Assembly (NCBI GenBank): GCA_947168725.1
Contig: CAMVNA010000009.1
Location: forward strand, 1 to 33,205
From: an uncultured bacterium
Lineage (GTDB): Bacteria > Patescibacteriota > Gracilibacteria > Absconditabacterales > Absconditicoccaceae
Length of the DNA stretch: 33,205 bases
Direction: 5' to 3'
The notes under the pieces were generated by a model. It was not told where the DNA came from and made no database searches. It saw only the letters and a list, made by a program, of their open reading frames with translations. Within the stretch, counting starts at the first letter, position 1; each line of letters begins with the position of its first letter. The position numbers and the translations under genes are program-made. Positions 27,656-33,071 of this stretch are shown here, in pieces.

Positions 27656-27943
27656 ATGACTCCAGAACAGTTACAAAAATTACTTAAACTTACAGCAATC
27701 GAATTACCAAAAGACCAAAAACCAGCTTTTCTAGATTATTTTAATTCTATGAAAGCTATGTTTGATGATTTTGCATCTTTTCCACTTCCTGAGTGAGATA
27801 TAGATGTAGAAGATGATGAGCCAATTACATGTTTTACAGACCAGAAAGATTTTGACTGATTAGATTTAGTGGAAACTAATGTAATTCCAGAGCGTCAAGT
27901 AAATCATGCAATTCAAGTAAATTCAGCAATCGGAGAAGAATAA
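27656..27943 (+). CDS. gatC: GatC-like subunit of tRNA-dependent amidotransferase
   Basis: A 95-aa acidic protein that fits GatC, the small bridging subunit of the GatCAB complex that turns Glu-tRNA-Gln or Asp-tRNA-Asn into the amide. The helical N-terminus (PEQLQKLLKLTAIELPKDQ, then FNSMKAMFDDFASFPLP) matches the LaRLelseeE pattern, followed by an Asp/Glu-rich DVEDDEP segment like the family DtegveP, and a variable tail with VIPERQVNHA. Two TGA codons read as Gly. I placed the start at 27656 because the earlier in-frame ATG lies inside the terminator of the preceding gene. gatA and gatB are not in the window. The match is by pattern, so a similar-looking small protein remains possible. Confidence 0.65.
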
Positions 27944-27996
27944 TTATCATTCTTAGTATATCGGAAATTAGATTTAAATTACAAATGTAGAAATAT

Positions 27997-28017
27997 GGGA
28001 TTTTTTATCCCCTTTTT
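27997..28017 (+). terminator. Terminator of the GatC-like gene
   Basis: The stem GGGAT/ATCCC (27997-28001 with 28007-28011) is followed by CTTTTT. It is short but well placed. Confidence 0.55.
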
Positions 28018-28026
28018 AAAAAAAAC

Positions 28027-28054
28027 TTGACTTTTCTGAGAATATTGTTATATT
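28027..28054 (+). promoter_or_regulatory. Promoter of the GH25 lysozyme cassette
   Basis: TTGACT (28027-28032), 16-base spacer and TATATT (28049-28054) with an upstream TG extension. The leader that follows (28062-28117) is noticeably richer in G and C than the surroundings and has a GTTCCAAT/ATTGGGAC hairpin. Confidence 0.65.
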
Positions 28055-28117
28055 ATCATCGTTCCAATGATTGGGACAACCGGCGACAGGGGTCTGAAGA
28101 GAAAAATCTAAGAAGGA

Positions 28118-28786
28118 ATGAAAAATTATCTCTTCTTTATGATTGTTCTTGTCTTCTTCTCATGCGATAGGCAAGAAGGTCCCGCCTTCGGCATTGACGT
28201 CTCCGAATACAATGGGGACATCGATTGGCCAACGGTCAAAGTCCAAACCAAGACGAAAGATCCGATTAAGTTCGTGATTATCAGGTCTTCGGCAGGTGTC
28301 TACAAGGACGTACAGTACGATAAGAACTACAAGGAAGCCAAGGAGAATGGCTTCATTGTGGGCTCTTACCACTATTACCGTCCCAACGAGAACTCAAGTA
28401 TGCAGTTCGAGAATTTTAAGGCCACACTTCACCTTGCGAAGGGTGATATTCTACCAGTGGTTGACATCGAGGAGGCTTCGTCAGTTCAGTCAATGGAAGC
28501 ATTGAAGAATGGACTGAGAAACTTCATATCCCTTTGTGAAAAGGAATATGGTGTTAAGCCAATAGTATATACGAAACTCTCGATGTGGGAGGATTTCCTC
28601 CAAAATGATTTTGCTGATTGTATGCTCTGGGTTGCTGCATACAGCACCCAAAGACGCGAGGAACCTACTGTCCAAAATGCGGAGATTCATCAGTTTACAA
28701 GAGAAATTAGGAATATTCCGGGGATTCCTGAAAAGTATGTGGACGGTGATGATGCTCGCGCCATAGAGAGAATTCTTTACTACTGA
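28118..28786 (+). CDS. GH25 lysozyme lipoprotein, foreign composition, TGA stop
   Basis: GH25 muramidases cut the MurNAc-GlcNAc bond of peptidoglycan. The 222-aa product has a lipoprotein signal (YLFFMIVLVFFSCDR, Cys16) and the GH25 barrel: FGIDVSEYNGDIDW with Asp27, FVIIRSSAG, GSYHYYRP, LPVVDIEE with Asp116 and Glu118 as the catalytic DxE, KPIVYTKLSMWEDF, LWVAAYS and IHQFT. It contains no internal TGA; its 11 glycines use GGT, GGC, GGG and GGA, with GGC and GGG common, unlike its neighbours. G+C is clearly higher. It ends at TGA, which this host reads as Gly; translation would then continue 17 residues to TAA at 28835, inside the terminator. AGAAGGA lies directly before the ATG. Composition and lipobox suggest a Bacteroidota-like donor (inference). 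Confidence 0.93.
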   Translation: MKNYLFFMIVLVFFSCDRQEGPAFGIDVSEYNGDIDWPTVKVQTKTKDPIKFVIIRSSAGVYKDVQYDKNYKEAKENGFIVGSYHYYRPNENSSMQFENFKATLHLAKGDILPVVDIEEASSVQSMEALKNGLRNFISLCEKEYGVKPIVYTKLSMWEDFLQNDFADCMLWVAAYSTQRREEPTVQNAEIHQFTREIRNIPGIPEKYVDGDDARAIERILYY

Positions 28787-28806
28787 GCTACACTGCATAT
28801 TTCGTT

Positions 28807-28835
28807 GCGAATCTGAACACAGATTCGCATTTTTT
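28807..28835 (+). terminator. Terminator of the GH25 gene
   Basis: The perfect 9-bp stem GCGAATCTG/CAGATTCGC (28807-28815 with 28820-28828) with an AACA loop is followed by ATTTTTT. It appears to have come with the cassette. Confidence 0.9.
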
Positions 28836-28913
28836 AAACTTTAATTTCTAATTTCTAACTAAATCATAAAGTAAATTCATCCATTTAAAAAGAATAGAAA
28901 TCAATTAAAAAAT

Positions 28914-28955: not shown

Positions 28956-29900
28956 TTATTTACCAAACCATCATTTAATAGTATCACCTAATGATTTTTT
29001 GTCTTTTTTTGATTCTTTTTCGGTTCCCTTCTCTTCTTTTTCTTCAATCTCGATTTCTTCACTAATATTTTCTTTAATTTGTTCTTTAATCTCCTCTTTT
29101 TTTTCTGTATTTTCAGTATTTCAGATTATTTCATTAAATTCTTCATCATTTACATTTGAATTATGAAAGAATAATCAATCCATTAATAAACTTCATTCTC
29201 CAGGATATTCTAATTGTTCTGCATGAATATTTAGTAAGTATGGATCACTCTCATCTTTTTTAACAATAATAGCTGTTGATATTTCTCATGGCCTTAACTG
29301 TCAAACCTCAGAATTGTAATAAAAATTATGCAAAAAATCATTAAAATCTCAAAAGAAAGCAGGATGTCATACGGCTTTTTGAAAGCCTCCACTACCTTTA
29401 ATTTTTTCTCTTTTGATTTCAAAAGCCAAAGAATCTCACGGTTTTAAATCCACAATACAATTGCTTATAAATTCATTTTCTTCTCTATTTAAAAAATTAT
29501 TTACATAATTACAAATTGTATCACTTCAATTCATAAAAAGCATATTCATTCTACTATCGATTTCTTGTTGTAGTGGTTTCAATACATTTTCTTTATAACC
29601 AGCAGCTCTAGTTTTTGGAGCTTGGTCGGAATCGTTGGACATTATATTTGGCACATTTACTCAATTCATCGCTTCAGTCATTTCTTTTCTCATGGAATCC
29701 ACTACTTTTCCATAACCAGCAGCTCTAGTTTTTGGAGCTTGGTCGGAATCGTTGGACATTATATTTGGCACATTTACTCAATTCATCGCTTCAGTCATTT
29801 CTTTTCTCATGGAATCCACTACTTTTCCATAACCAGCAGCTCTAGTTTTTGGAGCTTGATCTAGTTCGTTAGATACGACATTGATTTTTCTTTTTGCCAT
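28956..29900 (-). CDS. Hypothetical protein with exact 39-aa tandem repeats
   Basis: A 314-aa cytoplasmic-looking protein of unknown function. The N-terminus carries a 39-residue unit (SDQAPKTRAAGYGKVVDSMR, then KEMTEAMNGVNVPNIMSND) repeated about 2.3 times; the DNA copies are identical. The central part (about 120-235) is a mixed alpha/beta domain (NCIVDLKPGDSLAFEIKRE, GGFQKAVGHPAFFGDFNDF, LLNIHAEQLEYPGEGSLL). It is followed by a long Glu/Lys-rich helix (NTEKKEEIKEQIKENISEE) and a short amphipathic end GDTIKGWFGK. TGA glycines are frequent. No family is recognised. It has a promoter-like sequence upstream and a terminator downstream, so it is transcribed alone. Confidence 0.82.
29595..29866 (-). 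repeat. 117-bp tandem repeat, 2.3 copies, in frame
   Basis: The units start at 29595, 29712 and 29829. Copies 1 and 2 are identical over 117 bases; the third breaks off after about 35 bases into a diverged version. The period is a multiple of three, so the gene stays open. Confidence 0.95.
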
Positions 29901-29959: not shown

Positions 29960-30051
29960 ATTTTGAAGAATGAAATTTTCATAGAAAGAAAAAGGGAATT
30001 TTATACTTGAAACTTTGAATAAAAATATTAATCTAAATTAGCTATTTTTGT

Positions 30052-30214
30052 GCCTCTTTAAGAAAGGGGCTGTCACGGAGTGACTGGGGATTTAAACTCC
30101 TTTGTTGAAAAATTGCCCTCGCTTAGAGGTGGTAAGTTTCACTCTAAAAGGAGCAAATATTATCAGATAAAAATCCTCCGGCTTTCAGCCACCTCCTTTC
30201 AATAAAGGAGGACA
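30052..30214. mobile_element. MITE-like inverted-repeat element (non-coding)
   Basis: A 163-base non-coding element, richer in G and C than its surroundings, with imperfect terminal inverted repeats of about 40 bases. The left end reads CCTCTTTAAGAAAGGGGCTG; the right end, reversed, reads CCTCCTTTATTGAAAGGAGG. Both continue to a shared GGATTT-type inner edge. Each end also folds on itself (GTCACGGAGTGAC on the left; GGCTTTCAGCC and CCTCCTTT/AAAGGAGG on the right), and an inner CTCCTTT/AAAGGAG pair surrounds a CCTC/GAGG centre. No target-site duplication is evident. It could be a non-autonomous transposon relic or a structured intergenic repeat. It lies before aspS and may fold in its leader. 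Confidence 0.55.
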
Positions 30215-30254
30215 GAAAAGTAAAAAGAGACTTTAGTATTTAACTAATATAATC

Positions 30255-32510: not shown

Positions 32511-32882
32511 TTACAACCAACCATGCGTATAATTCAGTTCCCTCTTGTATGCTATAAATGATGCTACCAATATTGTGATGGATGCAACAATCTGTACTTC
32601 ATAGTACTGATATCTAAATATTAGCAAAACCAAGAAAAAAAAGCTCAACAACATAGTAATCCTAAAAACGGGCAAATGGAATTCTGACCAGTTGTTAGGT
32701 AATTTTTTTGAAGGAGTTTTCCAGTTCTTTGTAATCCTTCTGTGCAACAAGAGGAATACAACACAAATCACAGAAACTAGGGACATGAAAATAAAATTTT
32801 TTGGTGACTCTAGCATTGAATACAGCAGACCATTCACCACACCACAGCAAACGATCATTAACCAAATAAAAAAAATCTTCAT
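32511..32882 (-). CDS. Small four-helix membrane protein
   Basis: A 123-aa protein of unknown function with four predicted membrane helices: about 3-22 (FFIWLMIVCCGVVNGLLYS), 29-47 (NFIFMSLVSVICVVFLLL), 72-91 (FRITMLLSFFFLVLLIFRY) and 95-112 (VQIVASITILVASFIAY). A basic loop (HRRITKNWKTPSKKLPNNW) separates the two hairpins. It uses no TGA; its three glycines are all GGT, so it reads the same in both codes. That may be chance at this glycine count or a sign of later arrival. It converges on the 112-aa gene. Confidence 0.7.
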   Translation of the reverse strand: MKIFFIWLMIVCCGVVNGLLYSMLESPKNFIFMSLVSVICVVFLLLHRRITKNWKTPSKKLPNNWSEFHLPVFRITMLLSFFFLVLLIFRYQYYEVQIVASITILVASFIAYKRELNYTHGWL

Positions 32883-33071
32883 AATTATTGTATTTTTGTT
32901 TCACATATGTGTATATATATACAGAAAATGTTACTAAAATTCAAGAAGTAATATAATAAAATAAAGAATGTTAGATATAATGAAGAATAAATTTATTTCC
33001 TTGAATTTTCGATATGAAAAACTATCATTCAGTCAAGTTTTTCTAATTAAAAATTATATCTAAACCAAATA
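32883..33071. promoter_or_regulatory. Divergent intergenic region before uvrB
   Basis: It holds a perfect palindrome CACATATGTG (32902-32911) near the membrane gene, a TATAAT at 32976-32981, a TTGAAT-16-TATCAT pair (33001-33028) as the likely uvrB promoter, and a perfect 8-bp inverted repeat GAAAAACT/AGTTTTTC (33016-33023 with 33036-33043) that overlaps that -10. The inverted repeat may be an operator or a weak terminator. Confidence 0.4.

Follow-up and report, generated by a model that had tools for sequence, protein, structure and literature searches.

A GH25 muramidase gene, probably acquired, with a donor-type TGA stop in a genome that reads TGA as glycine

Introduction

Phages of the Absconditabacteria and Gracilibacteria avoid TGA, and where TGA is their stop it is followed by further stops (Liu et al. 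2023, PMC10746230). For the cells themselves the most relevant case is Vampirococcus lugosii, a predator among the Absconditabacteria, for which 126 acquisitions have been inferred and secreted peptidoglycan hydrolases described (PMC8080830). In the sections of that report drawn on here, its authors consider that foreign UGA stops would be read as glycine, giving aberrant proteins, and that this may protect the cell; the notion of a code change as a shield against foreign genes is argued there both ways. An association of Absconditabacteria with Bacteroidetes has moderate co-occurrence support (PMC8406219). In the literature searched, a selection rather than a full review, no report was found of a TGA stop kept in a chromosomal gene of a code-25 genome.

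The stretch analysed, here called the window, is one whole contig of 33,205 bases. It comes from an assembly of 17 contigs representing a genome of 1.07 Mb (91% complete, 1.27% contamination). Between gatC and aspS lies a gene for a GH25 muramidase which was probably acquired horizontally from a lineage with the standard code, so that the TGA at its end would be the donor's stop, read as glycine in its present host. The core of the preliminary description of this DNA, a foreign GH25 gene with a donor-type TGA stop in a TGA-glycine genome, holds.

The host code

In 645 ORFs from 803 kb of the genome, 63% of glycine codons are TGA; in the ORFs neighbouring the GH25 gene the share is 10–90%, in agreement with what had been said of the flanking genes. 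The single class-I release factor match in the genome is RF1 by NCBIfam, in an assembly that is 91% complete; no RF2 was detected, an absence that rests on the same incomplete draft. There is a tRNA with a UCA anticodon (L020, 74 nt, labelled SeC by ARAGORN), and a tmRNA gene is present. With TGA as glycine in most genes, RF1 without a detected RF2 and the UCA tRNA, the genome is one of genetic code 25. Since RF1 is present, RF2 undetected and the UCA-anticodon tRNA available, TGA should be read as glycine, and its read-through in the GH25 gene is to be expected, as the preliminary description had supposed. Within the genus, TGA use seems to vary: aspS of one genome (G002, L112) has no in-frame TGA over 603 aa, other same-genus copies having 4–32.

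The locus and its empty counterpart

In two genomes of the same genus (G003 and G005) gatC and aspS are immediate neighbours, about 30 nt apart. In the window the distance is 2.3 kb, made up of the GH25 unit, a host-code gene of 314 aa and the region upstream of aspS (Table 1). The site is thus empty in these relatives, as a foreign insertion would have it. Homology to them stops at about 27944, and the left edge of the extra DNA lies close to the weak hairpin that follows gatC. In a third genome of the genus (G004) uvrB comes after gatC and aspS is elsewhere, so rearrangement at this spot has occurred more than once. The 314-aa gene, which has repeated DQAPKTRAAGYGKVVDSM-type units, has no match in 7 other same-genus genomes. 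Those flanking genes of GH25 that match Pfam families are cellular, e.g. aspS and phosphatidylserine decarboxylase, and no phage genes were found beside it. (A small membrane-protein gene at 32511-32906 of the window also has raised GC3; it has a look-alike in G004, L115 5710-6087, which is upstream of aspS, on the opposite side of aspS from that in the window.)

Table 1. Features of the GH25 locus, with window positions, and examples of TGA-poor units on other contigs
Feature	Position	Strand	Remarks
Weak hairpin and T-run 3′ of gatC, likely gatC terminator	27993..28019	+	-7.6 kcal/mol, z -1.5 (weak); gatC ends at 27943
Promoter	28027..28056	+	ACTTGACTTTT -35 box (TTGACT, 28027-28032); TATATT/TATTAT -10 box (28049-28056), boxes read from sequence; motif also upstream of other TGA-poor units
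GC-rich leader ahead of start codon	28057..28117	+	No stable fold, z = 0.18
GH25 muramidase body, 222 aa, TGA-free, lipobox-like leader	28118..28783	+	Pfam PF01183; predicted fold
TGA, codon 223: presumed donor stop, glycine in code 25	28784..28786	+	Position matches homolog ends
Read-through tail (16 more codons, second TGA at codon 233) and TAA	28787..28837	+	Model residues 226-239 pLDDT <50
Intrinsic terminator: 10-bp stem, AACA loop, six T	28806..28835	+	Hairpin 28806-28829, -14.7 kcal/mol, z = -5.4
Host-coded gene, 314 aa, 12 TGA, in same extra DNA as GH25	28956..29900	-	No Pfam family
aspS upstream region	29985..30254	+	Common to G004; absent from G003 and G005
Example units in G000	L134:18530-19671, L122:3066-4097, L140:8906-9409, L116:812-1258, L136:12419-13336, L146:10966-11658		TGA-poor, higher GC, TTGACWTTT promoter, terminator

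An intact enzyme with foreign composition

Translated with table 11, the ORF at 28118-28837(+) gives 222 aa ending IERILYY-TGA; with table 25 it gives 239 aa and stops at the TAA at 28835-28837, the 17 codons added by read-through including TGA codon 223 itself. This agrees with the product and stop first described. The gene is a self-contained unit of promoter, ORF and terminator. Its GC is 0.43 and its GC3 0.50, against a GC3 of 0.16-0.27 in the 19 neighbouring ORFs checked and 0.21 (sd 0.05) for ORFs of the genome; a GC3 of at least 0.45 is reached by 2 of the 645 ORFs in 803 kb. Ahead of codon 223, glycine is encoded by 5 GGT, 3 GGC, 2 GGG and 1 GGA, and never by TGA, for which the probability is 1.8e-5 at the genome rate of 0.63. 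The initial observations of an own promoter and terminator, raised G+C and a TGA-free body are therefore all confirmed.

The protein matches PF01183 with 123.4 bits (curated cut-off 27) and is predicted to fold as a GH25 barrel (pLDDT 85.4, pTM 0.81), the best PDB matches of the model being the GH25 lysozymes 2wag and 1jfx. D27, D116 and E118, the last two forming the DxE motif, are invariant acidic residues in the GH25 alignment, and are presumably catalytic. The ORF is an intact GH25 muramidase, as judged by family match and by the predicted catalytic fold. It begins with a lipobox-like leader, MKNYLFFMIVLVFFSC, which looks like a lipoprotein signal; a regular expression finds such leaders in 30 ORFs of the surveyed genome, GH25 among them, and a crude search of the same kind found no match to Lgt or LspA in the genome. 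Probably the enzyme is exported, or anchored to lipid, and would then cut the peptidoglycan of prey or of the cell itself. For a predatory epibiont a secreted peptidoglycan hydrolase would make sense, as has been proposed for Vampirococcus (PMC8080830).

Relatives and possible source

Of 353 genomes of the class, 4 have a GH25 match, which in two cases is weak. The closest relative is the GH25 of UBA5124 (G025, L003/L038), which belongs to the same family but another genus and is 47% identical; its contig carries code-25 genes. It resembles the window gene in having a TGA-free body, a TGA at nearly the same column, a TTGACTTTT promoter and a terminator. It differs in being as AT-rich as its host (GC3 0.18), in ending TGA TAG and in having no lipobox-like Cys at the position of that in the window protein. 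Close homologs in Absconditabacteria with TAA or TAG stops and the same tail would have spoken against the proposed transfer; the single close homolog lacks the tail and has TGA TAG at its end. At the 3′ end of this homolog (L003) a near-repeat, KNLEKIKLC, comes after the final codons, KNLEKIRL, as though the end had been duplicated.

Outside the class the nearest sequences are from Bacteroidota (Schleiferiaceae, Flavobacterium, Paludibacter and others), at up to 47% identity. Those of Schleiferiaceae (L039), Flavobacterium akiainvivens (L040) and Paludibacter (L041) have the same domain, the Asp/Glu residues and a similar C-terminal end, but are at most 47% identical, use the standard code and have longer N-terminal regions. 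(The Schleiferiaceae gene, L039 63-623, has one in-frame TAA past which clear homology continues.) Most Bacteroidota homologs end near the position of the window TGA and a few have a TGA stop, so that the placing of this TGA at the normal GH25 C-terminus is confirmed by the column at which homologs end. In trees the window gene falls near the G025 and Schleiferiaceae sequences, with modest support and long branches. Scans with the GH25 protein as a single sequence gave no match in genome and viral contigs, a two-sequence alignment being needed, and the phage and plasmid records yielded distant GH25 only, the best phage matches listed being at about 33-36%.

Horizontal transfer of the gene is well supported. 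A transfer from a standard-code donor, as originally proposed, stands on composition, the empty site and the donor-type TGA. That it was recent does not stand equally: no homolog above 47% identity was found, and for that reason ‘recent’ depends on unameliorated composition. As the closest sequences from outside the class belong to Bacteroidota and end near the window TGA, the source is probably Bacteroidota-like, going by sequence comparison, though no close donor was found. A promoter of the TTGAC/TATAAT type is not expected of Bacteroidota, and the unit therefore did not come unchanged from a Bacteroidota donor. The immediate source would most likely be a member of the Bacteroidota, or else an organism carrying a gene that derives from them.

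Other TGA-poor single-gene units in the genome

The GH25 gene belongs to a class of about 16 TGA-poor, higher-GC single-gene units with a common promoter type, which the preliminary description missed. With no TGA in the first 80% of the ORF and a GC3 of at least 0.28 as criteria, 17 of the 709 ORFs in 974 kb of the genome are members; one of the 17 so counted, L116:10773, is doubtful and looks antisense to rRNA. The sequence TTGACWTTT is upstream of 12 of the 17, compared with 21 of 641 TGA-rich ORFs (p = 1.5e-13), and the longer ACTTGACWTTT of 7 of the 17 compared with none of the 641; the p-values for the promoter are descriptive, as the data that yielded the motif also served to test it. 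When only lone units are considered, the promoter is present in 11 of 13 TGA-poor cases vs 2 of 78. An own terminator follows 14 of the 17, compared with 100 of the 641. Independent support for the class comes from units of the same anatomy in other genomes (G027, G025 and G003), related genera among them.

Pooling the glycine codons of 16 hand-listed units gives 4 TGA in 165, vs 66% in TGA-rich genes. All four are C-terminal: GH25 has two, L116:812-1258 has one, immediately ahead of its terminator hairpin, and L134:18530-19039 has one, near where the L134 paralog ends. Three of the approximately 16 units, GH25 included, thus have TGA at the C-terminus only. Members include thyA, ndk, a Clp-like protease, a GNAT-like protein, a lipoprotein-like ORF and proteins of unknown function. 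High expression was considered as the cause of TGA avoidance and rejected; ribosomal-protein-like ORFs avoid TGA, with a GC3 near 0.2 and without the promoter. Four of the units share a leader motif like AATAAAATGTCAAACAAATAAA. In G025 a lemA / TPM-like / lipoprotein cluster (L036 9772-12474) has almost no TGA glycine and has TTGACWTTT promoters; it is a candidate for another import.

It is possible, though doubtful, that GH25 belongs to a pool of code-neutral single-gene units passing between Absconditabacteria, perhaps with standard-code neighbours included, by phages, plasmids or DNA uptake, in which case TGA avoidance would be a lasting property of the pool instead of the mark of one recent event. 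The common promoter and terminators, the like units in three other genomes and the G025 gene, AT-rich yet TGA-free in its body and ending TGA TAG, are consistent with such a pool, as are the code-neutral phages already described from these bacteria (PMC10746230). Units consisting of a canonical promoter, a TGA-free ORF and a terminator might then be expressible both where TGA is glycine and where it is a stop, and the GH25 stop would be leaky only in this kind of host; this we hold as a tentative idea. Against it, no vehicle has been seen: viral scans turned up no relatives of thyA or of the L134 and L132/L154 families, the L134 protein has no match in phage records, and no flanking motif common to the units was found beyond the promoter, itself defined on the data that tested it. 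G025 also uses TGA less, which makes a TGA-free gene there weaker evidence. A donor search with thyA was uninformative, giving about 40% identity to many groups.

Decoding at and beyond the TGA

The GH25 TGA is 19 nt from the terminator stem, the median distance from stop to stem being 20 nt in the 144 ORFs with a detected terminator. The read-through TAA is at the end of the terminator T-run, and its final base is 8 nt beyond the stem. A stop beyond the hairpin is present in 3 of the 144: GH25, L116:812-1258 and L165:3938-4300, the last a doubtful ORF that is included in the count.

Host ribosomes would insert glycine at the TGA and continue into the terminator hairpin; from TGA read as glycine there follows a 239-aa product with a disordered tail. 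Ribosomes that reach the TAA would yield a normal barrel with a floppy tail. Should transcription stop in the T-run, a ribosome reading TGA as glycine may find no stop codon, and where the transcript ends first a stalled non-stop complex would form, for which the tmRNA would be at hand. Since the TAA is at the very end of the T-run, read-through may yield non-stop mRNA and could be harmful. The earlier view that the tail need not harm the enzyme is only partly borne out: the predicted fold does not need it, but the mRNA may end before or in the TAA.

Were TGA still to terminate in this gene, through its context near the mRNA 3′ end or an undetected factor, there would be no tail. This is improbable: only RF1 was found, TGA serves as the major glycine codon near gene ends also, and we know of no bacterial precedent for context-dependent termination at TGA. 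What speaks for it is the unusual position in which decoding as glycine puts the stop, the fact that the gene has kept its anatomy and, from the part of the ciliate work drawn on here, the knowledge that termination there can be context-dependent (PMC4967479).

Still less credence is due to a chimeric assembly in which a fragment of another organism was joined into the contig. The foreign composition, the 17-contig state of the draft and its contamination give it some room, but it would need two junctions in one contig with host-coded genes on both sides, comparable units are present on other contigs and in other genomes, and the homolog in another genome of the family is on a contig with code-25 genes. 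That the gene is native and ancient, its TGA avoidance and strong signals reflecting high expression, is hardly tenable, for native ORFs of highly expressed type do avoid TGA but have low GC3 and no such promoter, GH25 is in few genomes of the class and the site is empty in relatives.

Comparison with known systems

A changed code does not keep foreign genes out, as the roughly 16 borrowed-looking genes that avoid TGA are present, with GH25 retaining an unreplaced TGA stop. One genome thereby provides a natural experiment: about 16 foreign-looking TGA-poor genes, three with a C-terminal TGA and one of these with an intact predicted catalytic fold. Their products are measurable, and could show whether the code change blocks, taxes or merely filters transfer.

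The sections of the Vampirococcus lugosii report drawn on here (PMC8080830) mention no particular gene that has kept a TGA stop. In comparison with the code 11-compatible phages (PMC10746230), the units described here are single chromosomal genes and not phage genomes, there are no phage genes beside GH25, and its backup stop is 16 codons away, not counting the TGA codon itself, and past the terminator stem. Like those phages, GH25 has a body without in-frame TGA and another stop, TAA, 17 codons on.
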